10,524 bases of DNA from Flavobacterium sp. (GTDB taxonomy: Bacteria; Bacteroidota; Bacteroidia; Flavobacteriales; Flavobacteriaceae). Positions 1 through 10,524 of the stretch are shown in pieces. The stretch's first letter is position 1; each line of letters starts with the position of its first letter. The translations under genes were made by a program, and so were the position numbers. Below the pieces are notes generated by a model. It did not search any database, was not told the origin of the DNA, and saw nothing but the letters and a program-made list of their open reading frames with translations. The stretch spans positions 1 through 10,524 of the forward strand of contig JAHRWO010000167.1 of the NCBI GenBank assembly GCA_019105125.1, in the 5' to 3' direction.

Positions 1-805
1 CATCCAAATAGGTGTCTAATTCGTAATTCAAACAACACTTTAATTTACCACATTGTCCCGCTAACTTTTGTGGATTTAATGATAATTGTTGATAACGTGC
101 TGCCGAAGTATTCACACTTCTAAAATCAGTCAACCAAGTAGAACAACAAAGTTCTCTTCCGCATGAACCAATTCCACCTAAACGAGCGGCTTCTTGACGG
201 AAACCAACTTGCTTCATTTCGATTCTAATTTTGAATTCTTGTGCAAATTCTTTAATTAACTGACGGAAATCTACACGATCATTTGCTGTGTAATAAAACG
301 TTGCTTTTGAACCATCGCCTTGAAATTCTACATCCGAAATTTTCATTTCTAATTTCAAATTGATAGCGATTTCACGAGCACGCATACGAACTGCTTCTTC
401 TTTATTTCTAGCTTCTGTCCAAATATCAATATCGCGTTGTGATGCTTTTCTGTAAATTTTAGCTAATTCCTTATCTGGATTTTCGCCTTTCTTTTTCATT
501 TGAATTTTTACCAATTCGCCTGTTAAAGTCACAATTCCGATGTCGTGTCCTGGTGAAGCTTCAGTAGCGACAATATCTCCAATAGCTAACGTTAGCTTTT
601 CTGTATTTCTAAAAAACTCTTTTCTACCGTTTTTAAAGCGAATTTCTGCCGCATCAAATGGTTCTTGTCCACCTGGCAACGTCATGTTTGACAACCAATC
701 GAAAACCGAAAGTTTATTGCAGCTATCGGTGCCGCAAGTCCCGTTATTATTACATCCTTTTGGTGTGCCATCTTTTGCACCCGTGGAACAGTTTGTACAT
801 GCCAT
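1..805 (-). CDS. ricT: PSP1/RicT-family Fe-S regulatory protein, C-terminus cut by window edge
   Basis: The gene starts at ATG 805-803 and runs off the left edge; 268 residues are visible. The PSP1 core covers roughly residues 55-260, with cysteine motifs CGRELCC (215-221) and CGKLKCC (252-258) typical of the YaaT/RicT family. In Bacillus subtilis, RicT joins RicA and RicF in an Fe-S-carrying complex that directs RNase Y mRNA cleavage and affects development; whether that holds here is inference, since neither partner is in the window. The N-terminus adds a cysteine-rich stretch (C3, C6, C18, C24, C29) that I recall from Bacteroidota homologues but not from the Bacillus protein. An out-of-frame ATG at 800-798 is not the start. 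It lies downstream of the terminated ferredoxin operon, has its own candidate promoter at 867-900, and was probably around 400 residues in full. The family assignment is very secure; the role less so. Confidence 0.9.
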   Translation of the reverse strand, partial: MACTNCSTGAKDGTPKGCNNNGTCGTDSCNKLSVFDWLSNMTLPGGQEPFDAAEIRFKNGRKEFFRNTEKLTLAIGDIVATEASPGHDIGIVTLTGELVKIQMKKKGENPDKELAKIYRKASQRDIDIWTEARNKEEAVRMRAREIAINLKLEMKISDVEFQGDGSKATFYYTANDRVDFRQLIKEFAQEFKIRIEMKQVGFRQEAARLGGIGSCGRELCCSTWLTDFRSVNTSAARYQQLSLNPQKLAGQCGKLKCCLNYELDTYLD

Positions 806-866
806 AATTTTGAATATATGTTGATTGTCCGTTTGTTGGACTACGTTTCTAAAATGTTTTTGAGCG

Positions 867-900
867 TAAAGATATTGATTTTTTGTGGAAACTTTCAAAA
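867..900 (-). promoter_or_regulatory. Candidate ricT promoter, Bacteroidota type
   Basis: On the minus strand TATCTTTA (874-867) is one base off the -7 consensus TAnnTTTG, and a TTTTG (900-896) sits 21 bases upstream of it as the -33 element. Transcription would begin near 860-863 and give a leader of about 55 nt before the ATG at 805. The spacer is slightly longer than the usual 17-20 bases, so the match is moderate. It lies downstream of the preceding operon's terminator, where a new promoter is needed. Confidence 0.4.
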
Positions 901-909
901 ATCAATATC
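871..909. repeat. Perfect 13-bp inverted repeat over the ricT promoter
   Basis: GATATTGATTTTT (871-883) is the exact reverse complement of AAAAATCAATATC (897-909), with a 13-base spacer. The arms overlap both core elements of the proposed ricT promoter. No T-run follows the repeat on either strand, so it does not look like a terminator, and it lies upstream of the expected transcription start. An operator for a dimeric regulator is the simplest reading; it could also be chance in AT-rich DNA. Confidence 0.6.
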
Positions 910-927
910 GAAGTTCGCCAAAAAGAA

Positions 928-961
928 AAAACCTATCTCATAGTTAAACGAAATAGGTTTT
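928..961 (-). terminator. Intrinsic terminator of the trhO-U32-ferredoxin operon
   Basis: Read on the minus strand, AAAACCTATTTC (961-950) pairs with GAGATAGGTTTT (939-928), a 12-bp stem with one T-G wobble and a 10-base loop, followed by the T-rich tail TTTTTTCTTTTT. It starts 25 bases after the ferredoxin stop codon. The plus-strand flank is not T-rich, so termination should act on the minus strand. Confidence 0.85.
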
Positions 962-985
962 CATATAGTATTGTAAAACAAAAAT

Positions 986-1216
986 TTAGGTTTCTTTTAC
1001 GGTAATAATATGTACCGGACAAGCTTTTGCAGCTAATTCACAATTTTCAACAATCGTATGATCGGGTGATTTTAAGGTGTGAAAACCTTTCGAATCAACC
1101 GATTTAATTAATACTGATTTTCCGTCTTTTTTGGACATTTGAAATTGTGCAGGTGCCATTTCAACGCAATAATTGCAACCAATGCATTTGTCTCTTTGTA
1201 GCGTAACAATGACCAT
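986..1216 (-). CDS. Small [4Fe-4S] ferredoxin, last gene of the tRNA-hydroxylase operon
   Basis: This is a 76-residue soluble ferredoxin, probably an electron carrier in the cytoplasm. C11, C14 and C17 (CIGCNYC) together with C66-P67 form the usual CxxCxxC...CP ligand set for one 4Fe-4S cluster. C59 is a fifth cysteine, and there is no complete second ligand set, so one cluster is expected. The ATG (1216-1214) overlaps the TAA of the upstream U32 gene in the sequence TAATG, so translation is almost certainly coupled. That linkage suggests it supplies electrons to, or helps assemble the cluster of, the U32 enzyme. I recall that the E. coli ferredoxin YfhL is implicated in U32-type RNA hydroxylation, which would fit, but the partnership here is inferred from gene order only. 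The terminator at 928-961 follows. Confidence 0.85.
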   Translation of the reverse strand: MVIVTLQRDKCIGCNYCVEMAPAQFQMSKKDGKSVLIKSVDSKGFHTLKSPDHTIVENCELAAKACPVHIITVKET

Positions 1217-2457
1217 TAGTTTTCTACAATTTTATACATTTTGTCCGATAAACGAATGCGGAATGGCACTTTTAAAGTACAACTATCACCTTTGGTAGCT
1301 TTTTCGGAAACAGCGTCATTTACGTATAATTCTTCCAAAACCAATTCTTGCGCTCCCGTTGATGGACCTGTGATTAAAATTTTATCGCCTTTTTTAATGT
1401 CGTAAGCTTCGATTTTGAATTCGGCTATGCTTGATTTTGGGAAATAATGCATTCCTTTACCCACATAAACTTTTTTCTGAGTAGCATTAGAACCTGGGTT
1501 ATCTGACCATTCGCCTAATTTTTGTCCCAAATAATAACCACTCCAAAAACCACGATTGTAAACGGTTGCCAATGCTTCCATCCAAGTGTTGATTTTTTCT
1601 TTCGTAAATGTTCCTTCGTAATACGAATCGATAGCTTCTCGATACGTTTTGATAACGGTTGCTACATAATCAGCAGCACGACCACGACCTTCAATTTTTA
1701 AAACTTTGATTCCTGAATCGATAACTTGATCTAGAAAATCTAAGGTACATAAGTCTTTTGGCGACATCATGTATTCGTTATCAATTTCGATTTCAAAACC
1801 AGATTCTTGATCGATAACCGTGTATTTTTTACGACAATTTTGTTTGCAAGCACCACGATTGGCAGAAGAATTATGCGAATGTAAACTCAAATAACATTTT
1901 CCTGAAACCGCCATACACAAAGCGCCGTGACCAAAAATTTCAATCTCTACCAAATTGCCGCTTGGTCCTTTTATTTGCTCTTTTTCGATATCATCGGTGA
2001 TTTTCTTTACTTGACGTAAACTCAACTCACGAGACAGAACAATCGTATCGGCAAACATCGCGTAGAATTTTACGGTTTCGATGTTCGTTACATTCAATTG
2101 GGTGGAAATATGGACTTCCATTCCCATCGTACGAGCTGTCATAATCACCGCTTGATCAGATGCGATTACAGCTGTAATGCCTGCTTCTTTGGCTTTAGCT
2201 AAAAGTGTTTTTACAATCGATAAATCATGATCGTAAATAATGGTATTTAAAGTTAGATAGGTTCTAACATTTTTTTCGTTACAACGACGCGCAATTTCTG
2301 GTAAATCGTCTAAAACGAAATTTACGGTTGCACGTGCGCGCATATTTAATTGTTCAACACCAAAATAAATGGAATCGCAACCATTATCTAAAGCTGCTTG
2401 CATGGATTCGAAATTTCCGGCAGGCGCCATCAATTCTATTCTTCCAGAAGTTGTCAT
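1216..2457 (-). CDS. Peptidase U32-family Fe-S RNA hydroxylase, TrhP-like
   Basis: The protein has 413 residues. The N-terminal part (about 6-300) is a U32-type barrel: it opens with IELMAPAGNFESM and carries the family signature around residues 172-191 (EIFGHGALC...GKCYLS). Probable 4Fe-4S ligands are C181, C188, C204 or C208, and C237, a spacing close to that known for UbiU. Despite the family name, characterised bacterial members hydroxylate RNA or quinones: TrhP (prephenate-dependent 5-hydroxyuridine at tRNA U34), RlhA (23S rRNA C2501) and UbiU. The length, the C-terminal domain at 328-413 and the adjacent trhO favour a TrhP role. The motif SANRGACKQNCR also resembles RlhA, so the exact substrate is unsettled and no symbol is given. 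Both gene junctions are TAATG overlaps, with trhO upstream and ferredoxin downstream. Its C-terminal domain matches the end of TrhO. Confidence 0.85.
   Translation of the reverse strand: MTTSGRIELMAPAGNFESMQAALDNGCDSIYFGVEQLNMRARATVNFVLDDLPEIARRCNEKNVRTYLTLNTIIYDHDLSIVKTLLAKAKEAGITAVIASDQAVIMTARTMGMEVHISTQLNVTNIETVKFYAMFADTIVLSRELSLRQVKKITDDIEKEQIKGPSGNLVEIEIFGHGALCMAVSGKCYLSLHSHNSSANRGACKQNCRKKYTVIDQESGFEIEIDNEYMMSPKDLCTLDFLDQVIDSGIKVLKIEGRGRAADYVATVIKTYREAIDSYYEGTFTKEKINTWMEALATVYNRGFWSGYYLGQKLGEWSDNPGSNATQKKVYVGKGMHYFPKSSIAEFKIEAYDIKKGDKILITGPSTGAQELVLEELYVNDAVSEKATKGDSCTLKVPFRIRLSDKMYKIVEN
1219..1476 (-). other. U32-type C-terminal domain, copy in the U32 protein
   Basis: These are residues 328-413 of the U32 protein. 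They align without gaps to residues 368-452 of TrhO, with about 40 identities in 85 columns counted by hand. Anchors are GDKILI-GP-TG, the VN pair and PFR-RLSDK. In this family the region corresponds to the U32 C-terminal domain, which I recall as a small beta-barrel. Confidence 0.85.
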
Positions 2458-3815
2458 TAGCTGATAATTTTAAATAATTTATCTGATAATCTTACTCTAA
2501 AAGGTAAAGCAAAAGTTACTTTATCACCTTGTTTTGCTTGATTGGCTTCCGTTCCATTAACAAACATTTTTTCCACAACAAATTCCTCATTTCCAGTAGT
2601 AGGTCCTGAAATTAATATCTTGTCTCCTACATTCAATTCGTTATTTTCGATTTGAAAAAGGCCTACTTGAGCTTTAACGTAGTAATGTTGAGCTTTTCCT
2701 AAAATCACTTTTTTAACTTTGATTTTTTGGCGAATATCTTTAACCGGTTTCACTGTTGCAATTGGAGCATCAGGCAATTCACCTGATTTTTTAAATTTCA
2801 ACGCTTCGGATTTTCCTTTACGGAATACTTTATTTCCAACTTGTTTTCCGCTTCTCAATTTTACTTGTTCGGCTAATGGTAAATGTGTGATTTCTAAACA
2901 TTCAGTAGAACAACAATTTTCCATGGCTGCTTTACATTCGTCACATTGAATGAATAGTAAATGACAACCATCGTTAGCGCAATTGGTATGATTATCGCAA
3001 GGTTTCCCACATTGGTGACATTGAGAAATAATATCTTCAGTAATTCGTTCTCCTAAACGATTATCAAATACGAAATTCTTACCAATAAATTTACTTTCCA
3101 AACCTTCCTCTTTGATTTGTTTGGCGTAATTGATGATTCCACCTTCAAGCTGAAATACATTTTTAAAACCTTGATGTTTGAAATACGCAGATGCTTTTTC
3201 GCAACGAATACCTCCGGTGCAATACATCACTAGATTTTTATCTTCTTTGAAATCTTTTAATTGCTCGTTAATGATAGGTAAACTTTCTCTAAAAGTTTCT
3301 ACATCTGGAGTAATTGCACCTTTAAAATGACCGATTTCACTTTCATAGTGATTTCTAAAATCGACTACAATCGTGTTTGGATCTTCTAAAATTTGATTGA
3401 ATTCTTTCGCTTTTAAATGCACTCCAATATTGGTTACATCAAACGTTTCGTCGTTCAAACCATCGGCTACAATTTTATCACGAACTTTTACCGTTAATTT
3501 TAAAAACGAATGGTCGTCGTGTTCTACAGCGACATTCAAACGAATGCCACGCATAAAATCATAGGCTTCTAAAGTTTCTCTAAAAGCTTCGAAGTTTTCG
3601 GCAGGAACACTCATTTGAGCATTGATTCCTTCTTTGGCTACATAGGTACGACCAAGAGCATCGAGTTTGTTCCATTCGATAAATAAATCGTCGCGAAATT
3701 TTTTGGGATCTTCAATTTTGGCATACGCATAGAAAGATAATGTTAATCGTTGTTTACCCGCTAAATCAATTAGCTCTTTTCTTTCTTCTGCGCTTAAGGT
3801 GTTGTACAGTTGCAT
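2457..3815 (-). CDS. trhO: Oxygen-dependent tRNA uridine(34) hydroxylase TrhO with an extra C-terminal domain
   Basis: TrhO (formerly YceA, UPF0176) uses O2 to hydroxylate U34 of certain tRNAs to 5-hydroxyuridine, the precursor of the wobble modifications cmo5U and mo5U. This 452-residue protein has the family N-terminal domain (about 25-118), a rhodanese domain (about 145-240) with active-site loop CTGGIRC (C199, C205), and the conserved cysteine-rich block at 266-306 (C266, C269, C273, C279, C284, C291, C294, C301, C302, C306). A lysine-rich linker (about 320-366) then leads to residues 368-452, absent from the roughly 350-residue E. coli enzyme as I recall it and clearly homologous to the end of the neighbouring U32 protein. 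It is the first gene of a three-gene operon with a promoter at 3873-3902. Its stop codon shares one base with the next start codon. Confidence 0.93.
   Translation of the reverse strand: MQLYNTLSAEERKELIDLAGKQRLTLSFYAYAKIEDPKKFRDDLFIEWNKLDALGRTYVAKEGINAQMSVPAENFEAFRETLEAYDFMRGIRLNVAVEHDDHSFLKLTVKVRDKIVADGLNDETFDVTNIGVHLKAKEFNQILEDPNTIVVDFRNHYESEIGHFKGAITPDVETFRESLPIINEQLKDFKEDKNLVMYCTGGIRCEKASAYFKHQGFKNVFQLEGGIINYAKQIKEEGLESKFIGKNFVFDNRLGERITEDIISQCHQCGKPCDNHTNCANDGCHLLFIQCDECKAAMENCCSTECLEITHLPLAEQVKLRSGKQVGNKVFRKGKSEALKFKKSGELPDAPIATVKPVKDIRQKIKVKKVILGKAQHYYVKAQVGLFQIENNELNVGDKILISGPTTGNEEFVVEKMFVNGTEANQAKQGDKVTFALPFRVRLSDKLFKIIS
2460..2714 (-). other. U32-type C-terminal domain fused to TrhO
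   Basis: These are residues 368-452 of TrhO, the second copy of the domain that ends the U32 protein. Codon choice differs strongly between the copies, so this is an old domain transfer or duplication and not a recent DNA repeat. A lysine-rich linker separates it from the cysteine-rich TrhO core. Confidence 0.85.
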
Positions 3816-3819
3816 GCTA

Positions 3820-3829
3820 TAAACGTTTA
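3820..3829. repeat. 10-bp palindrome just upstream of the trhO start
   Basis: TAAACGTTTA is a perfect 10-bp palindrome that ends 4 bases before the trhO ATG. It lies in the transcribed leader, in the ribosome entry region, with no Shine-Dalgarno sequence nearby. It may be a protein site or chance. Confidence 0.3.
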
Positions 3830-3846
3830 AGTGAGAATTATGTTAT

Positions 3847-3867
3847 GAATTCTAAATGGAAGAATTC
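3847..3867 (-). promoter_or_regulatory. Hairpin at the 5' end of the trhO operon leader
   Basis: GAATTCT (3847-3853) and AGAATTC (3861-3867) form a 7-bp stem with a 7-base loop. The predicted transcription start for trhO (about 3866-3869) falls at the edge of this repeat, so the mRNA would begin with the stem-loop. That is a known way to protect a 5' end; a DNA operator is the alternative. Confidence 0.4.
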
Positions 3868-3872
3868 GGGCA

Positions 3873-3902
3873 CAAAGGTAATAAAATTGATTAAAAATCA
3901 AA
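3873..3902 (-). promoter_or_regulatory. trhO operon promoter, Bacteroidota type
   Basis: On the minus strand a perfect TTTG (3902-3899) is followed after 18 bases by a perfect TAnnTTTG, TACCTTTG (3880-3873). This gives a leader of about 50 nt. The spacer and the -33 box contain TTGATT-TTT-AATCAA, a 6-bp inverted repeat (3887-3901), which could be an operator. It diverges from the recA promoter. Confidence 0.75.
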
Positions 3903-3935
3903 TCTTTAATAGTATTTCAAAACATATTAACATTT

Positions 3936-3966
3936 TTTGTATCGAATAAAAAAAGATGTATTTTTA
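3936..3966 (+). promoter_or_regulatory. recA promoter, Bacteroidota type
   Basis: TTTG (3936-3939) is followed after 19 bases by TATTTTTA (3959-3966), one mismatch from TAnnTTTG. Transcription should start near 3970-3973, only 10-13 nt before the ATG at 3983. This placement excludes the upstream in-frame ATG at 3956, which lies inside the promoter. I see no LexA-type operator. Confidence 0.65.
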
Positions 3967-3982
3967 CGAAAAATATTTTATT

Positions 3983-4987
3983 ATGAGCTCAGATAAAGAC
4001 GCAAAATTAAAAGCCTTACAACTAACATTAGACAAACTTGACAAAACGTACGGAAAAGGAACCGTAATGAAATTAGGTGATAGCGCTGTTGAAGAAGTTG
4101 AAGCTATTCCGTCAGGTTCATTAGGTGTTGATTTGGCTCTTGGTGTAAACGGTTACCCAAGAGGAAGAATCATAGAAATCTACGGACCAGAATCGTCAGG
4201 TAAAACCACGTTAACATTACACGCCATTGCAGAAGCTCAAAAAGCGGGTGGAATTGCAGCATTTATTGATGCTGAACACGCATTTGACCGTTTTTATGCT
4301 GAGAAATTAGGGGTTGATATTGACAATTTAATTATTTCGCAACCTGATAATGGTGAACAAGCATTAGAAATTGCCGAGAGTTTAATTCGTTCAGGAGCAG
4401 TTGATATCGTTGTAGTTGACTCGGTTGCTGCTTTAACTCCAAAAAGCGAGATTGAAGGCGACATGGGAGATTCTAAAATGGGATTACATGCTCGTTTAAT
4501 GTCGCAAGCTTTGAGAAAGTTAACAGGTACCATTCACAAAACCAATTGTACCGTATTTTTCATTAACCAGTTACGTGATAAAATTGGGGTAATGTTTGGA
4601 AATCCAGAAACCACAACAGGTGGAAACGCATTAAAATTCTATGCTTCGGTTCGTATAGATATTCGTAAATCGACACAAATTAAAGATGGCGAAAACGTAA
4701 TTGGAAATCGAACTAAAGTTAAAATCGTTAAGAACAAAGTAGCGCCACCATTTAGAACAGCTGAATTTGATGTTATGTACGGAGAAGGAATTTCTAAAGT
4801 AGGTGAAATTTTAGACTTAGCCGTAGAATTTGAAATAATCAAGAAAAGTGGTTCTTGGTTTAGTTATGGAGAAACTAAGTTGGGTCAAGGTAGAGATGCT
4901 GTGAAAGTGTTAATTAAAGACAATCCAGAATTGATGGATGAATTAGAACAAAAAATAAAAGAAACCATCAAAGAAAACCATGGTTAA
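3983..4987 (+). CDS. recA: Recombinase RecA
   Basis: RecA forms filaments on single-stranded DNA and catalyses ATP-dependent strand exchange in recombinational repair and transformation. The protein has 334 residues starting [12 protein letters not shown]. Visible motifs are Walker A GPESSGKT, the Walker B segment [11 protein letters not shown], the L1-loop region around [34 protein letters not shown] leading into L2 ([12 protein letters not shown]), and a short acidic C-terminal tail. I chose ATG 3983 over the in-frame ATG at 3956: the nine extra residues (MYFYEKYFI) are not part of the family N-terminus, and 3956 lies within the promoter. The gene has its own promoter and a terminator 7 bases after the stop codon, so it is monocistronic, divergent from the trhO operon. 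The dprA gene in this window encodes a protein whose family loads RecA during transformation. Confidence 0.98.
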
Positions 4988-4993
4988 CAAATT

Positions 4994-5017
4994 ATCCCGA
5001 TTTATTCGGGATTTTTT
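4994..5017 (+). terminator. recA intrinsic terminator
   Basis: ATCCCGA (4994-5000) pairs with TCGGGAT (5006-5012) around a TTTAT loop, and the run continues TTTTT to 5017. The stem begins 7 bases after the recA stop codon. It has high GC content for this region and points along the plus strand. Confidence 0.85.
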
Positions 5018-5075
5018 AATTTTAGACGCAACCATTTTATTAAAACCGAATCTTAATCAAAAATACTTAGAATAA

Positions 5076-5477
5076 ATGAAAAGAATAATTTTACTTTTAA
5101 GCTTTATTTTTCTATTTAATTCCTGTGAACCCGACGGCTACAATTATCGCGTAGACGTATTACCGGTTGAGTCAGTTGTAATTCCAACTGAATTTACATT
5201 GGGTGAAACTTATCAAATTACAATGCGCTATTACAGGCCTACGAATTGTCATAGTGCATATGGAATTTACTATGAAAAAGATTTAAACATTAGAACTTGT
5301 GCCGTAAAAAATTTAGTTGAAGAACGCGGAAATTGCGGAACTTTAGAAAACGTACTCGTTGAAGAAACCTTTAATTTTAAAGTAACTAACACGGGCAACT
5401 ATATCTTTAAATTTTGGACAGGCGAAGATGCAGACGGAAACAATACTTTCATGACTTATGACATTCCTGTAAACTAA
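5076..5477 (+). CDS. Small lipoprotein of unknown function, first gene of the sigma-factor operon
   Basis: The protein has 133 residues. Residues 1-16 are a lipoprotein signal peptide (basic KR, hydrophobic IILLLSFIFLF, then NS before C17), so C17 should be lipidated after signal peptidase II cleavage. The mature part is about 116 residues, with three further cysteines (C58, C75, C87) and alternating hydrophobic residues that suggest a small beta-sandwich, especially from about 97 to the end. Acidic residues soon after the cysteine (CEPDG) might act as a surface-export signal of the Bacteroidota kind, but the match is weak. I do not recognise the family. The stop codon is 11 bases before the TTG start of the sigma gene, so the two are probably cotranscribed, and the lipoprotein could be a sensor or target of that system. 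No convincing promoter is visible in the 58 bases between the recA terminator and this gene. Confidence 0.75.
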   Translation: MKRIILLLSFIFLFNSCEPDGYNYRVDVLPVESVVIPTEFTLGETYQITMRYYRPTNCHSAYGIYYEKDLNIRTCAVKNLVEERGNCGTLENVLVEETFNFKVTNTGNYIFKFWTGEDADGNNTFMTYDIPVN

Positions 5478-5488
5478 CCCTTCAAAAA

Positions 5489-6031
5489 TTGATCTTAGAG
5501 CAACTGATAAAAGAATGCTGTAATCATAATAGAAAAGCACAAGAGCAACTCTATCGCTTATTAGCGCCAAAATTGTTTTCTGTTTGCTTGAAATATTCGC
5601 GCAACTATGAAGAAGCTCAAGACAATTTACAAGAAGGTTTTTTAATACTTTTTGAAAAGATTAATCAATTTAAAAACATAGGTTCTTTTGAAGGATGGGC
5701 AAAACGAATTTTTATCAACTTCATTCTTCAACAGTACCGAAAGCAAAATGTGTTTGAAATTATTTCAGAAAATATAGTTGATGATGCTGAAATTGAAATC
5801 GATGAAGAAAATATTAGTTTGGAATTTTTAACTCAAATTATTCAAGAATTACCCGATAGATATAGATTGGTTTTTAACCTTTATGTTTTAGATGGATATT
5901 CACACAAAGAAATAGCAGATTTGCTTAATATAACAATAGGAACTTCAAAATCAAATTTGGCAAGAGCGAAAGCAATCCTAAAAAACAAGATTGAAGTCTA
6001 TAAAAATTTTGAAGTAAAAAAAAGTAAATGA
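5489..6031 (+). CDS. ECF-type RNA polymerase sigma factor with a TTG start
   Basis: The protein has 180 residues with the two-domain layout of ECF sigma factors. Region 2 is at about 18-86 (AQEQLYRLLAPKLF, SRNYEEAQDNLQEGF, GSFEGWAKRIFINF), followed by an acidic linker (97-110). Region 4 is at about 113-167, with the helix-turn-helix around SHKEIADLLNITIGTSKSNL for -35 recognition. There is no ATG or GTG anywhere near the N-terminus; the frame upstream is open only to 5462, and homology begins right after 5489, so TTG in the context CAAAAATTG is the best start. It follows the lipoprotein gene by 11 bases and overlaps the next gene by ATGA. ECF sigma factors are normally held inactive by a cotranscribed membrane anti-sigma factor, and the next gene is the obvious candidate. 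The target promoters are not evident here. Confidence 0.9.
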   Translation: MILEQLIKECCNHNRKAQEQLYRLLAPKLFSVCLKYSRNYEEAQDNLQEGFLILFEKINQFKNIGSFEGWAKRIFINFILQQYRKQNVFEIISENIVDDAEIEIDEENISLEFLTQIIQELPDRYRLVFNLYVLDGYSHKEIADLLNITIGTSKSNLARAKAILKNKIEVYKNFEVKKSK

Positions 6032-7569
6032 AAGAAAACAAAAATATAGAACGTCTTTTTCAAGAAAAATTCAAGGATTTTGAAGCCATTCCGCCTCATA
6101 ACTCTTGGGAAATCATTGCTGGTCGATTGAAAGAGAAAAAAAAGAAAAAAAGAGTGATTCCTTTTTGGTTTCAATTCTCTGAAATTGCTGCATCATTGTT
6201 TATAATTGGTGCTTTGATTTGGAATTTCTCAAAAAGCTCTCATACAACTGAAATCAGTGCTCCTAAAAACCAGACTGTTAACCGTAACAATGAAACTCGC
6301 AAATTATTGAAAAAAGAATCAATTGTAGAAGAAGTTCAAAAAACAAAAGAAAATCAGCAAAAACAATCACTAAATTCGGATAAAGACAAGCTCGAATCTG
6401 TAATAGTTTCAAATGAAAAATATAAAAAAACAAGAACAACTGAATCCAAAGTAGGAGAAAATTCAAAAAATAAAAACATTCAAAAATCAAAAATCACGCA
6501 TGAGGAAAATCTAATTTCTGATGCTGTAAAAATAAAAGTAAAATCGAAATCGGATAAAATCAATAATCCAATTGCAAACCAAACCAGGAAAAAATACGTA
6601 TTTAAAAATGATGATTTACTCAACAATTCTGGTGATAGGAAAAAGTCAGAAATCATATTTAAAAACAAATCATTTAATGAAACATTAATTTCAAAAAATG
6701 ATGAACATACCAAAAAACATAACTTTATTTCGAATGATATAGAGATTCAAGACAGTACGCTAGTGGCTGATATTTCGAATGAAACAAATCCATTAGAGGA
6801 ATTGCTTAAAGAAAAAGAGGAAGGGAAAAATGCAGATGAAAAAGAAAGAAGAAATAAATGGGCGATTAGCACAAATGCGTCGCCTGTTTATTTTAATTCT
6901 ATCGCACAAGGTTCTTCTTTAGACTCGCAATTTAATTTGAACGACAAAAGCTATGCAACAACTTTTAGTGTGGGAATTACAGGAATTTATTCGTTAACAG
7001 AGAAATTAAGTCTAAGATCAGGTATTAATACGATTGTGTTGCGTCACAATACTAACGATGTGTTTTTTGATGCTAGAATTAGTGATGTTTCTCAAAATAT
7101 TCCAACCATATCACGAAATGCAACGGGGTCGAATATGTTATTTACATCTAAAACAGATGTTCCAATATCGTTATCGGGCGATGTAGAAAATGTGAGTATT
7201 AGCAACAACTTGGGTTCACTAGAACAAAACATCAGTTACGTTGAAGTGCCTCTAGAATTAAGTTACAAACTACTCGATAAGAAATTTGGCATTGAAGTGA
7301 TTGGAGGAATGAGTACTTTGTTTTTAAATCAAAATAACATTTCATTAATTGCCAACGGTGTTGAAATGGAAATAGGAAGAGCAAACAATTTAAACGATAT
7401 ACATTTTAGTAGTAATGTCGGTTTGGGTTTTAGATATAGTTTCTGGAAAAGCTTTGATGCTAACTTCCAACCTATGTTTAAATACCAAATCAATACCCTC
7501 AGTGAAAACTTTGGAAATTTTAAACCTTATTTTATTGGTTTATATACTGGAGTTAGTTTTAGTTTTTAA
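6028..7569 (+). CDS. Single-pass membrane protein with C-terminal outer-membrane beta-barrel-like region; candidate anti-sigma factor
   Basis: The protein has 513 residues in three parts. Residues 1-43 form a probable cytosolic head (NIERLFQEKFKDFEAIPP, NSWEII) ending in the basic run KEKKKKKR. A hydrophobic segment at 53-66 (extended 44-67) is a likely inner-membrane helix, N-terminus inside. Residues 68-276 are a hydrophilic, low-complexity linker rich in K, N, S and E. Residues 277-513 show alternating strands (for example FSVGITGIYSLTEKLSLRSG, SYVEVPLELSYKLL, GLGFRYSFW) and end in phenylalanine (GVSFSF), as outer-membrane barrels do. The head resembles N-termini I recall from uncharacterised Bacteroidota proteins beside sigma factors. 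The ATGA overlap with the sigma gene implies coupled expression, hence the anti-sigma proposal, which is inference. If the membrane segment were cleaved as a signal peptide, it would be an ordinary outer-membrane protein, but I see no clear cleavage site. Confidence 0.8.
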   Translation: MKENKNIERLFQEKFKDFEAIPPHNSWEIIAGRLKEKKKKKRVIPFWFQFSEIAASLFIIGALIWNFSKSSHTTEISAPKNQTVNRNNETRKLLKKESIVEEVQKTKENQQKQSLNSDKDKLESVIVSNEKYKKTRTTESKVGENSKNKNIQKSKITHEENLISDAVKIKVKSKSDKINNPIANQTRKKYVFKNDDLLNNSGDRKKSEIIFKNKSFNETLISKNDEHTKKHNFISNDIEIQDSTLVADISNETNPLEELLKEKEEGKNADEKERRNKWAISTNASPVYFNSIAQGSSLDSQFNLNDKSYATTFSVGITGIYSLTEKLSLRSGINTIVLRHNTNDVFFDARISDVSQNIPTISRNATGSNMLFTSKTDVPISLSGDVENVSISNNLGSLEQNISYVEVPLELSYKLLDKKFGIEVIGGMSTLFLNQNNISLIANGVEMEIGRANNLNDIHFSSNVGLGFRYSFWKSFDANFQPMFKYQINTLSENFGNFKPYFIGLYTGVSFSF

Positions 7570-7590
7570 GCTTTTTTGGTTAAGCTTAAA
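7565..7590 (+). repeat. Hairpin overlapping the stop codon of the barrel protein gene
   Basis: TTTAAGCTT (7565-7573) pairs with AAGCTTAAA (7582-7590) around an 8-base loop. The TAA stop (7567-7569) lies in the left arm. It is the first of three hairpins in a row and has no T-run of its own. Confidence 0.55.
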
Positions 7591-7608
7591 TTTACAGTTA
7601 AGTTAAGT

Positions 7609-7630
7609 GTTTCATTCTAAAAAATGAAAC
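7609..7630. repeat. Second hairpin in the convergent intergenic region
   Basis: GTTTCATT (7609-7616) pairs with AATGAAAC (7623-7630) around a 6-base loop. It sits 2 bases before the terminator stem, so the two may stack in the transcript. The stem is AT-rich and the hairpin has no T-run. Confidence 0.5.
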
Positions 7631-7632
7631 TG

Positions 7633-7659
7633 AAAAAGTCCAATTGATTTGGACTTTTT
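7633..7659. terminator. Bidirectional terminator between the sigma operon and plsC
   Basis: AAAAAGTCCAA (7633-7643) pairs with TTGGACTTTTT (7649-7659) around TTGAT. The flanking A5 and T7 runs let it work on both strands. It serves the plus-strand sigma operon and the convergent acyltransferase gene, whose stop codon (7662-7660) directly abuts the stem. Confidence 0.85.
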
Positions 7660-8400
7660 TTATTTATTATCATTAAGTAACGGTTGTAAAATAATTTGTC
7701 TAACCTGATTTTTTAGCGTGTTTTTGTCTTCCAAAGTTTTGCCTTTAGTTTCAATTATTGGATAAATTTTAGCACGCATTTTTCCTGGACTTCCGCTAAA
7801 AAAAGTATACGAAAAACGCTTTTTATTGTCGAAAAACACCATCGGAACGATTGGTAAACCATGTTCTAAAGCAATTCTGAAAGCACCGTCTTTGAATTCG
7901 TCTAATACTATATGTTCTTCTGGAACACCACCTTCGGGAAAAATACAAATGCTCAATCCTTGATGAATTCTTTTCTGAGCACGTTCAAAAACCGCATAGC
8001 GACTTTTACTACTACTTCTATCAACCAAAATACAAACACGTTTATAGATAAATCCAAAAATCGGAATCTTAGCCAATTCTTTTTTTCCTACAAAAACAAA
8101 CGGATGATTTTTAACTGCAATCAACATCAACATAATGTCCGTCATTGAAGTATGATTGGCTACTAACATATAACTTTTTCCATCTTCAAAAACTTCATCA
8201 CCTTCTATTTTGTAATGGAATCCCATTCCAATTAAAATGAATTTTGCCCAAATACGTGCAATTCTAAAAAATAACGGATAGGTTTTTTCACTTAAAATCG
8301 TAGCCAAAATGAAGGGAAATAGTACAATAATGGGAACTAAAACCAAAATGTAGAACCAAATACGATATAAAAGGGTAAGCGGATATTTTAAAAATTTCAT
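7660..8400 (-). CDS. plsC: 1-acyl-sn-glycerol-3-phosphate acyltransferase, PlsC family
   Basis: PlsC-type enzymes transfer a second acyl chain to lysophosphatidic acid, giving phosphatidic acid for phospholipid synthesis at the inner membrane. The protein has 246 residues from ATG 8400. An N-terminal hydrophobic stretch (YRIWFYILVLVPIIVLFPFI) anchors it. It carries the catalytic HX4D motif (NHTSMTD), the FPEGG substrate-binding motif, and a conserved block around VGKKELAKIPIFG. An in-frame TTG four codons upstream (8412) would lengthen it to 250 residues; I prefer the ATG because a perfect -7 box at 8423-8430 puts the transcription start almost on that TTG. It converges on the sigma operon and diverges from trpS. 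Substrate specificity within the family, for instance ornithine-lipid synthesis, cannot be excluded from sequence alone. Confidence 0.88.
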   Translation of the reverse strand: MKFLKYPLTLLYRIWFYILVLVPIIVLFPFILATILSEKTYPLFFRIARIWAKFILIGMGFHYKIEGDEVFEDGKSYMLVANHTSMTDIMLMLIAVKNHPFVFVGKKELAKIPIFGFIYKRVCILVDRSSSKSRYAVFERAQKRIHQGLSICIFPEGGVPEEHIVLDEFKDGAFRIALEHGLPIVPMVFFDNKKRFSYTFFSGSPGKMRAKIYPIIETKGKTLEDKNTLKNQVRQIILQPLLNDNK

Positions 8401-8422
8401 TTTCTTCAGCAAATAATATTCC

Positions 8423-8452
8423 CAAAAGTAATGATTTTCGTAAAACTTCCAC
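8423..8452 (-). promoter_or_regulatory. Candidate plsC promoter
   Basis: On the minus strand TACTTTTG (8430-8423) is a perfect TAnnTTTG. At the expected 19-base spacing the -33 position reads GTG (8452-8450) instead of TTG, so the promoter is probably weaker than that of trpS. Transcription would start near 8416-8419, about 17 nt before the ATG at 8400. Confidence 0.5.
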
Positions 8453-8460
8453 TTTTTAGT

Positions 8461-8490
8461 TTTGCCTTTTTACATTATCCTTTACCTTTG
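8461..8490 (+). promoter_or_regulatory. trpS promoter, Bacteroidota type
   Basis: TTTG (8461-8464), 18 bases, then TACCTTTG (8483-8490): both boxes match the consensus exactly. Transcription should start near 8494-8497, leaving a leader of about 11-14 nt. That is too short for a tRNA-sensing leader or attenuator upstream of trpS. Confidence 0.8.
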
Positions 8491-8507
8491 CAAAAAACAG
8501 TTGAAAA

Positions 8508-9476
8508 ATGGCAAAAATCTTAACCGGAGTTCAAAGTACAGGAACACCACACTTAGGTAATTTATTAGGAGCAATTATTCCTGCTATTCAAATGGCAAAC
8601 AATCCTGATAACGAGTCTTTTCTTTTCATTGCTGATTTGCATTCGATTACGCAAATCAAAAATGGAGCAGAATTAAGACAAAATACATATAGTGTTGCGG
8701 CGGCTTGGCTGGCGTGTGGTTTAGATACGAATCGTGTAGTTTTTTACCGTCAATCAGATGTGCCTCAAACTACAGAGCTTTCTTGGTATTTGAGTTGCTT
8801 TTTTCCGTTCCAACGTTTGACATTAGCGCACTCTTTTAAAGATAAAGCGGATAGATTAGATGATGTCAATGCGGGATTATTTTCGTATCCAATGTTAATG
8901 GCGGCTGATATTTTATTGTATGATGCCAACTTTGTTCCTGTTGGAAAAGATCAATTGCAACATTTAGAAATTACGCGTGATGTAGCTTCGCGTTTTAATC
9001 ATCAAATGGGTGAAACGTTTGTATTACCTGAAGCTAAAATCGACGAACAAATCATGATTATTCCGGGAACAGACGGACAAAAAATGAGTAAATCGAGAAA
9101 CAATTTCATTAATATTTTTGTGGATGACAAAGCACTTCGCAAACAAATTATGGGAATTCAAACCGATAGTACACCATTAGAAGATCCAAAAAACCCAGAT
9201 ACTTGTAATTGTTTTGCTTTGTATAAATTGTTAGCAACACCTGAACAAACAGAAGTAATGAAAGCCAACTATTTAGGTGGAAATTACGGCTACGGTCACG
9301 CCAAACAAGAATTGTTTGAATTAATCGTTGAGAAATTCAAAACCGAAAGAGAAAAATACAATTACTACATCAACAACTTAGAAGAAGTAGATAAATTATT
9401 ATTAGAAGGTGCCGCAAAAGCAAGTGCTGTAGCAAATGGTGTTTTGAAAAGAGTTAGAGAGAAATTGGGTTACTAA
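8508..9476 (+). CDS. trpS: Tryptophan--tRNA ligase
   Basis: This is a class Ic aminoacyl-tRNA synthetase that attaches tryptophan to tRNA(Trp) using ATP, in the cytoplasm. The protein has 322 residues, a normal bacterial length. The HIGH-type motif is PHLGN (14-18), after GVQSTGT. The KMSKS loop is exact at 192-196. Between them lies the conserved block AGLFSYPMLMAADILLYDA (122-140) and VGKDQLQHLEITRD, which form the tryptophan and adenylate pocket and the dimer core. The C-terminal part (about 210-322) is the helical anticodon-binding domain. The ATG at 8508 sits just after a consensus promoter and matches the family N-terminus (MAKILTGVQ). It is monocistronic, with a bidirectional terminator 23 bases after the stop codon. 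Confidence 0.98.
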   Translation: MAKILTGVQSTGTPHLGNLLGAIIPAIQMANNPDNESFLFIADLHSITQIKNGAELRQNTYSVAAAWLACGLDTNRVVFYRQSDVPQTTELSWYLSCFFPFQRLTLAHSFKDKADRLDDVNAGLFSYPMLMAADILLYDANFVPVGKDQLQHLEITRDVASRFNHQMGETFVLPEAKIDEQIMIIPGTDGQKMSKSRNNFINIFVDDKALRKQIMGIQTDSTPLEDPKNPDTCNCFALYKLLATPEQTEVMKANYLGGNYGYGHAKQELFELIVEKFKTEREKYNYYINNLEEVDKLLLEGAAKASAVANGVLKRVREKLGY

Positions 9477-9499
9477 GAAAACTCAAAATTCAATAAAGT

Positions 9500-9537
9500 A
9501 AAACCTCAAAGTTTAGATTTCTAAATTTTGAGGTTTT
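9500..9537. terminator. Bidirectional terminator between trpS and dprA
   Basis: Positions 9500-9517 pair with 9520-9537 across an 18-bp stem with a single G-T wobble (9511/9526); only two bases separate the arms, so the tip will open in practice. The core is AAAACCTCAAA against TTTGAGGTTTT. The T-run to 9539 serves trpS and the A-run on the left serves the convergent dprA, which ends at 9545. Confidence 0.88.
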
Positions 9538-9544
9538 TTATTTA

Positions 9545-10524
9545 TCAAACCACCTCAAACATTTTTCCCGGCAAAGGTCGGATTACACCTTTTAATTCCA
9601 TATTTAACAAAATGGAAGAAATTCTGTAAATAGGAAAATCACATTCTAAAGCGATTATATCCATCATTTCTTTGCCTGTTTTTTGAAGGTAATCGTAAAT
9701 GATTTGCTCTTCATCAGTTAAGGTAACGAACAATTGCTTTTGTACTACTTTTTGAGATTCACGTTGCAATTCCCAATTCAAAATATAGACCAAATCAGCT
9801 GCCGAAGTGAGTAAATTAGCGCGTTGTGTTTTAATCAAATTGTTGCAGCCTTGACTGTATTTATCAGTCGTTCTTCCTGGAACAGCGAAAACATCTCGGT
9901 TGTAATCGTTAGCTAAATTAGCGGTTACTAATGAACCACCTCTTTCGGCACTTTCTATTACGATGGTAGCTTCGCTAATGCCGGCAACTATGCGATTTCG
10001 TTTGATGAAATTTTCTTTATCGGGATTGCTGCTGCTCCAAAATTCGGTTAAAAAGCCGCCTTTATGTTCCATTTTTGCCATGTACTTTTTGTGGGTTTTC
10101 GGATAAATTTGATTCAATCCGTGTGCTAAAAAACCAATGGTTTGCAATCCACAATCCATTGCCATTTGATGGGCGTAAATGTCCACACCATAAGCAAAAC
10201 CACTAACAATGATTGGATTTAGAGGTGAAATTTCTTCGATTAATTTCTTAGTAAATTCCATACCATACGTCGTGATTTGCCGCGTTCCGACAATACTGAT
10301 AATTCTTCGATTTTGTAAATCGATATTCCCCGCTTGAAATAAAAGAACGGGGCAATCAAAACAATGTTTTAATCTTTCGGGATAATTTTCTGATTGAAAA
10401 TACGTAGTAGAAATATTTTCTTTGGAAATAAATTGTAGCTCTGATTCTGCTTTTGCAAATACCGATTTGTCTTGTAAATTTTTAATTACAACCGAACCAA
10501 TGCCGTCAATTTTTTGAAGTTGGG
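9545..10524 (-). CDS. dprA: DNA-processing protein DprA (Smf), N-terminus cut by window edge
   Basis: DprA binds incoming single-stranded DNA during natural transformation and loads RecA onto it; it is widely conserved even in species not known to be competent. The frame is open from the right edge to TGA 9547-9545, with 325 visible residues; about 40 are probably missing. The first visible residues (LQKIDGIGS) are the end of a helix-hairpin-helix (SAM-like) domain. The Rossmann-type core follows with SIVGTR (76-81), SGFAYGVD (107-114), FIKRNRIVAG (172-181) and ESAERGGS (191-198). The last ~65 residues form the winged-helix domain (LTDEEQIIYDYL to the end). The Met at 10261 is internal: 87 residues of clear DprA sequence precede it. 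It converges on trpS across a shared terminator; its promoter is outside the window. Confidence 0.95.
   Translation of the reverse strand, partial: QLQKIDGIGSVVIKNLQDKSVFAKAESELQFISKENISTTYFQSENYPERLKHCFDCPVLLFQAGNIDLQNRRIISIVGTRQITTYGMEFTKKLIEEISPLNPIIVSGFAYGVDIYAHQMAMDCGLQTIGFLAHGLNQIYPKTHKKYMAKMEHKGGFLTEFWSSSNPDKENFIKRNRIVAGISEATIVIESAERGGSLVTANLANDYNRDVFAVPGRTTDKYSQGCNNLIKTQRANLLTSAADLVYILNWELQRESQKVVQKQLFVTLTDEEQIIYDYLQKTGKEMMDIIALECDFPIYRISSILLNMELKGVIRPLPGKMFEVV

Follow-up and report, generated by a model that had tools for sequence, protein, structure and literature searches.

Locus Organization

We analyzed a 10,524-nucleotide stretch of DNA from Flavobacterium sp. (assembly GCA_019105125.1, contig JAHRWO010000167.1, positions 1 to 10,524; hereafter the window) that carries the gene for a putative envelope-spanning anti-sigma factor of the Dma (dual membrane-spanning anti-sigma) type, preceded by the gene for an extracytoplasmic function (ECF) sigma factor. 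Unless stated otherwise, all features lie on the forward strand. The Dma-type gene (6028–7569; ATG start; 513 amino acids) was recognized from its open reading frame (ORF), an alignment, a structural model, and profile-level similarity to the Dma-type protein of Bacteroides. The sigma gene (5489–6031; TTG start) encodes 180 amino acids with matches to the Pfam domains Sigma70_r2 (1.1e-13) and Sigma70_r4_2 (2.6e-16) and to TIGR02937 (sigma70-ECF, 2.8e-27); its score against TIGR02985, another Bacteroidetes sigma subfamily, was 83, below the cut-off of 126. As the initial annotation of this DNA had stated, the sigma and Dma ORFs overlap by ATGA. The sigma gene starts 11 bases after the end of a small lipoprotein gene (5076–5477; 133 amino acids), which was identified by its ORF and by the lipobox FNSC with the lipid-bearing Cys17. 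In front of it, phylogenetic footprinting revealed a predicted ECF-type promoter, CGCAACC-N16-ATCT (5027–5053; -35 element at 5027–5033, -10 element at about 5047–5053). Judged from the sequence, the transcription unit is an operon of the small lipoprotein gene, which comes first, and the sigma and Dma genes; the lipoprotein gene and the promoter are additions to the initial annotation.

The gene order recA, lipoprotein, sigma, Dma, plsC, trpS was found in 13 of the 36 loci L125–L160 (with intervening genes in L131). Downstream of the Dma gene, a probable intrinsic terminator, AAGTCCAA-TTGAT-TTGGACTT with a T run behind it (7636–7661, no strand assigned), was read from the sequence by eye rather than by a scan.

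Architecture and Conservation of the Dma-Type Protein

The protein had been proposed to consist of a basic head, an inner-membrane helix at residues 44–67, a linker of about 210 residues, and a barrel-like C terminus ending in Phe, and all of these parts were recovered in an analysis that combined the sequence with an AlphaFold2 model built on a 29-row alignment (mean predicted local distance difference test score, pLDDT, of 62; predicted template modeling score of 0.48). The cytosolic head (residues 1–43; 6028–6156), which the alignment, the low-confidence model, and a profile match mark as the predicted sigma-binding part, was modeled with helices at residues 5–19 and 24–35, and its residues Pro22, Trp27, and Ile30 are invariant in the 29 aligned sequences. 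It leads into a predicted inner-membrane helix (residues 44–68; 6157–6231), modeled at residues 47–68, with the best 19-residue hydropathy window beginning at residue 46 and a preceding Lys/Arg cluster that predicts a cytosolic N terminus. The pLDDT values of the head and membrane helix were 44–64. Just upstream of the membrane-helix codons, Lys-rich codons form A-rich runs (A8, G, A7) at 6136–6151; slippage at these runs would destroy the anti-sigma factor and free the sigma factor.

The predicted disordered periplasmic tether (residues 69–253; 6232–6786) is part of a region, residues 68–253, with pLDDT of about 30. The tether has a net charge of +10, and both its length and its charge differ among homologs. 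The entire stretch from the membrane helix to the barrel comprises 209 residues here and from 146 to 373 in the 29 aligned sequences. Immediately before the barrel, the model places a helix at residues 255–272 within a conserved segment (residues 254–277; 6787–6858; consensus NxLEELLKEKE), in which the majority residue has a frequency of 0.52 versus 0.32 in the tether. The C-terminal barrel (residues 278–513; 6859–7566), which the initial annotation had expected, was modeled with eight strands within residues 278–512, mostly at pLDDT above 90 (strands counted by hand from the model's strand list), and the protein terminates in ...GVSFSF. This C-terminal half matches an ordinary OmpA-like barrel, and the alternative that it is a periplasmic beta domain rather than an outer-membrane barrel appears very improbable.

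Identity to the closest relative, from Flavobacterium sp. HXWNR69, was 95% in the head, 96% in the membrane helix, and 74% in the barrel versus 49% in the linker. Conserved ends connected by a divergent, length-variable linker are the pattern expected of a tether joining two working ends. The range of linker lengths, the higher identity of head and barrel than of linker, and the sigma gene found upstream of all 66 full-length Dma genes described below indicate an architecture beyond chance.

A match to the Dma protein was detected in 25 of 60 genomes, including that of the window, and a profile gave matches, often restricted to the head, in 75 of 296 genomes sampled across the phylum. Six such phylum matches outside the genome of the window were examined: three proved to be full sigma–Dma pairs (L061, L064, and L065), L063 was a short split version, from another genome, that resembles the L059 arrangement described next, and L060 and L062 were unrelated. 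The phylum figure thus includes false and head-only matches.

In the genome of the window itself, a split arrangement (L059, at C12:3200-6500, and L236) comprises an ECF sigma gene, a 228-amino acid head-helix-tether protein without a barrel (match of its head to the Dma head profile, 4.7e-06 in a 25-sequence search), and a separate 371-amino acid protein with an apparent export signal. Such an arrangement favors the possibility that the barrel of the Dma-type protein is real but that routine cleavage in the periplasm leaves an inner-membrane anti-sigma factor and an outer-membrane barrel as two proteins. However, head, tether, and barrel lie in one frame both at the loci examined, for which a full-length ORF was the counting criterion, and in the Bacteroides-type relatives, and we consider routine cleavage decidedly unlikely.

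Pairing with the Sigma Factor and Relationship to Known Systems

An ECF sigma gene was located directly upstream of the full-length Dma gene in all 66 cases examined, with five Bacteroides-type sigma factors recognized by their position and by inspection; the count omits L025 (a partial match with no pair there) and L009–L013, L015, and L028–L030 (repeats, or loci included in a larger form). Distances among sigma factors and among Dma proteins were correlated at 0.94, compared with a permutation maximum of 0.16, a correlation that is inflated by common descent. At L157 (G146), two sigma–Dma pairs are present in tandem.

Profile comparisons related the window protein to its Bacteroides counterparts at both ends. 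With all heads truncated where the membrane helix begins, the profile of 29 heads of the window kind matched that of 24 Bacteroides-type heads with a probability of 94% and a score of 37.1, whereas 100 shuffles reached at most 14.5. The barrel profile scored 93.3 against five Bacteroides-type proteins (shuffle maximum of 21.6) and 94.2 against 24 proteins. The Bacteroides proteins compared are other than Dma1–3 of Bacteroides thetaiotaomicron and are of the Dma type by architecture and neighbors. In L110 (Bacteroides ihuae), a NigD gene is divergent from the sigma gene, which is followed by a gene for a 409-amino acid head-helix-tether-barrel protein.

Having a homologous head, a single predicted inner-membrane helix with a long disordered tether, a C-terminal barrel, and an adjacent ECF sigma gene, the Flavobacterium protein is, as judged by sequence comparison and modeling, a Dma-type anti-sigma factor, and the system is of a kind already known. 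The original proposal that an anti-sigma factor and an outer-membrane barrel are joined in one envelope-spanning protein is well supported by this predicted anatomy and by the head and barrel profile matches to the Bacteroides protein. An ordinary outer-membrane protein whose signal peptide is cleaved, and whose sigma neighbor is unrelated, would account for the OmpA-like barrel. Nevertheless, the 43 conserved residues and the Lys/Arg cluster ahead of the hydrophobic helix are unlike a signal peptide in shape (as seen in the alignment), the head matches Bacteroides Dma-type heads, and the sigma partner is constant, which makes this alternative scarcely credible.

Cell-surface signaling of the FecI–FecR type likewise places an ECF sigma factor under a membrane anti-sigma factor that answers to an outer-membrane barrel. 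In that type, however, the anti-sigma factor and the barrel are separate proteins, whereas here they are one. The FecR domain (PF04773) had no match in the window protein at E-values up to 1, and the single FecR match in the same genome is on another contig (C318).

The initial annotation knew of similar architectures only as uncharacterized hypothetical proteins, a statement now out of date given the publication of Reo from Phocaeicola vulgatus and Dma2 from B. thetaiotaomicron. In the available portions of these reports, the P. vulgatus anti-sigma factor is predicted to span the periplasm and to have a C-terminal barrel (PMC9308784) and is named Reo, with EcfO (PMC13114119), while Dma2 is described as having an anti-sigma domain at the N terminus and a barrel, with a helix and a disordered tether between them, and as showing a phenotype that requires the sigma factor Das2 (PMC13088901). 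The predicted Flavobacterium system resembles Dma1/Dma2 with Das1/Das2 in combining the head, inner-membrane helix, long disordered tether, and barrel in one protein, in the adjacent gene for the cognate ECF sigma factor, and in having its own operon as a main target, which is a prediction for Flavobacterium. The Dma1/Dma2 account concerns B. thetaiotaomicron, and its available text contains no occurrence of "Flavobacter" (PMC13088901). In contrast to Dma1/Dma2, the operon here is opened by the 133-amino acid lipoprotein gene, and its promoter motif was not found in the four NigD–sigma intergenic stretches of the Bacteroides-type loci L109–L112 or in the region upstream of NigD in L106. With Reo/EcfO (P. 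vulgatus/Bacteroides fragilis) it shares a predicted periplasm-spanning anti-sigma factor with a C-terminal barrel and a partner ECF sigma gene upstream, and, as the Reo/EcfO regulon includes lipoprotein genes, so does this operon (PMC9308784, PMC13114119). As far as these texts describe them, the Reo/EcfO lipoproteins are NigD proteins, whereas the lipoprotein here shows no sequence relation to NigD.

Promoter Motif

The motif CGCAACC-N15/16-ATC(T/C) was present upstream of the sigma gene, on the same strand, in 39 of 47 sigma–Dma loci (L001–L008, L014, L016, L017, and L125–L160, where L001 is the window and L014 was counted through the match G025:C7:174821); two loci had near matches (L127 and L139) and six had none (L155–L160). 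The spacers between CGCAACC and ATC(T/C) are divergent across these upstream stretches, and the 47 loci are kin by descent, so the count is not one of independent events. The looser GCAACC pattern matched once in the window versus 0.03 expected matches. In another Dma subfamily (L140–L142 and L150–L154), the operon is longer, and the motif is situated ahead of its first lipoprotein gene, at approximately 1 to 1.4 kb upstream. The heads of this subfamily are like IEDIFSSMEDFSSVPPPELW, and its operons begin with a lipoprotein of approximately 290 amino acids, often accompanied by a 132-amino acid exported protein. For L018–L027 and L065, which are outside the promoter count, no motif was found in the eight loci scanned, within less than 1 kb upstream in all except L065.

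The CGCAACC motif is unlike the Bacteroides housekeeping TTTG/TAnnTTTG elements given in the available part of PMC7366714, which also mentions a published EcfO recognition motif for B. fragilis. Among the open-access matches listed, no literature on flavobacterial Dma proteins or on the CGCAACC motif was found. An additional CGCAACC motif on the strand divergent from recA was observed in L132, L134–L137, L139, and L146, with an ORF start approximately 230 bases downstream in L136 and L139. In L221, L222, and L223, paired CGCAACC promoters are approximately 180 bases apart with no ORF of at least 60 amino acids beginning within 250 bases downstream; these double promoters perhaps drive small RNAs.

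Pattern searches of the genome of the window, which is approximately 75% complete, yielded a convincing motif at the window operon alone. The GCAACC pattern gave three matches versus three in the control. Eleven one-mismatch matches of the full motif were found outside the window, and none was counted as a target. Of the nine examined (all but L225 and L228), eight are inside ORFs (sense or antisense), and the match at C298:7086 (L234) falls in the end of the preceding gene, approximately 110 bases before a lipoprotein gene. In 36 relatives of the same genus, the N14-16 pattern had 148 matches versus 66 in the control. The matches were divided among 15 genomes with a close Dma (78 versus 30), 6 with another Dma (31 versus 14), and 15 that lack one apart from a weak partial match in G028 (39 versus 22). 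Since the excess extends to genomes without this Dma, other sigma factors may share the motif. Some of the further sites in relatives precede lipoprotein genes and SusC-type receptor genes, as would suit a role in the envelope (based on 20 regions chosen for AT-rich spacers, with gene kinds assigned by eye); in L206, L212, L216, and L219 the motif is 133–205 bases upstream of SusC-type TonB-dependent receptor-like genes.

The Operon Lipoprotein and Genomes without the Sigma–Dma Pair

The lipoprotein was modeled as a predicted beta-sandwich (pLDDT of 90). A homolog (profile E-value up to 1e-3) directly precedes the sigma gene in 31 of 64 scorable pairs (weak profile matches in L131 and L143), and all 31 homologs contain a lipobox under a laxer rule. 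By that rule, a lipobox protein was encoded upstream of the sigma gene in 48 of the 64 pairs compared with 46 of 277 control genes, and in 12 of 28 cases of the class "other"; five Bacteroides-type loci in this count derive from a NigD search and are therefore biased. Under a stricter rule, the control count was 36 of 277 and several true lipoproteins were missed.

Homology of the lipoprotein to NigD was considered and rejected at the level of sequence. Neither domain of the NigD family (PF12667/PF17415), NigD_N or NigD_C, matched any of 38 aligned members at E-values up to 0.1, and the profile comparison scored 12.8 versus a shuffled maximum of 18.5. A hint of a relation came only from the fold. 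NigD_N was found in none of 198 phylum genomes. Short proteins with NigD_C only were also dismissed as a bridge, since 12 of the 13 such regions in other families (L090–L102) had no sigma–Dma-like pair in the stretch examined; in the other one, L090, such a pair lies one gene away. In L103, from another family, a NigD_C protein and a serpin-like gene are divergent from a sigma–Dma pair whose barrel protein has 467 amino acids.

Acidic residues, which behind the lipid-bearing Cys fit a surface-export signal, make up 41% of positions +2 to +6 after the Cys in these lipoproteins versus 15% beyond residue 25. This composition suits an alternative in which the lipoprotein of the operon serves as the signal by binding to the barrel, on its extracellular or periplasmic face, with the operon, as a homeostat, counting its own surface lipoprotein. 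Also in line with it, 16 of the 60 genomes (that of the window aside) have a close Dma match (E-value of 5e-28 or less), and all 16 possess the lipoprotein (2e-29 or less), beside the pair in the loci examined; at L017, from another family, the lipoprotein gene is downstream rather than upstream of Dma, which indicates that it travels with the pair. On the other hand, four genomes keep the lipoprotein but have neither sigma nor Dma, and stand-alone copies also exist, so the lipoprotein is useful without the sensor, and other Dma subfamilies have different upstream lipoproteins, mostly unmatched by the lipoprotein profile (L150 weakly, 8e-4). We regard sensing of the lipoprotein by the barrel as unlikely.

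In the four genomes just mentioned (G005, G026, G028, and G031), the lipoprotein gene adjoins recA, and the sigma and Dma genes are both absent there. The absence of both where the lipoprotein is present indicates that sigma and Dma come or go as a pair. The strict promoter was likewise absent, with matches in 0 of 5 upstream stretches. G031, the genome of the pair-less locus L164, carries another sigma–Dma pair elsewhere (L024). The joint absence of the pair and the strict promoter suggests that the promoter is recognized by this sigma factor, with the lipoprotein as an output rather than an obligate part of the sensor. The simplest reading of these sequence patterns is that the paired sigma factor reads the CGCAACC promoter and autoregulates.

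Proposed Mechanism and Implications

By likeness to the tested Bacteroides systems, the head would keep the sigma factor on the cytosolic side of the inner membrane, where the helix would anchor Dma; the disordered tether would span the periplasm, and the OmpA-like barrel in the outer membrane would report the state of that membrane. Perturbation of the barrel or the outer membrane may loosen the grip on the sigma factor through pulling, misassembly, or proteolysis. The freed sigma factor would then transcribe the operon from the CGCAACC-N16-ATCT promoter, yielding the lipoprotein as output and fresh Dma that resets the switch. As a whole explanation, this combination of sigma holding by the head, a membrane-to-membrane tether, a sensing barrel, and autoregulated release appears to us highly probable. 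It is supported by the anatomy, the profile homology, the operon linkage, the promoter footprint, and the absence of sigma and Dma together with that of the strict promoter. We infer the binding of sigma by the head, the topology, the insertion of the barrel, the use of the promoter by this sigma factor, the signal, and the release step.

Several observations weigh against this explanation. The head and tether were modeled at low confidence, and the Pfam matches of the window protein to barrel families were under the gathering scores (18.5 bits versus 27). Single Bacteroides-type proteins match the head profile weakly, 18 of 24 being over the inclusion threshold, with a best value of 1.9e-5 in a 25-sequence search. 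The barrel-less L059 protein shows that a head alone does not imply envelope spanning. The genomes with the lipoprotein but without the pair are only four, GCAACC is still present in 4 of their 5 upstream stretches, and L164 is one base off the strict motif. Finally, the one-mismatch motif occurs 12 times in the genome of the window versus 15 times in the control, with no wider regulon visible.

A broader and rather doubtful conjecture is that each Dma lineage of the Bacteroidota is tied to its own small surface lipoprotein, which might be of the present beta-sandwich family, of a lipocalin-like set recognized by eye, or, in Bacteroides, NigD, and which would form a closed homeostat with the barrel and the sigma factor. 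The envelope-spanning protein would sense the surface lipoprotein or the membrane state that this lipoprotein maintains, and the sigma factor would make more of the lipoprotein via the CGCAACC promoter; in larger flavobacterial genomes, the same promoter might bring other genes of the outer membrane, SusC-type receptors among them, into the loop.

The published work on trans-envelope anti-sigma factors, as represented in the sources available, rests on gut Bacteroides and Phocaeicola, and B. thetaiotaomicron is stated to have 50 ECF sigma factors (PMC12596196), which makes a direct test hard in that organism. The Flavobacterium locus is a compact version of the system that offers a predicted promoter, a naturally occurring set of pair-less genomes, and one candidate output gene, and would thus be a convenient reporter for what the outer-membrane barrel senses.
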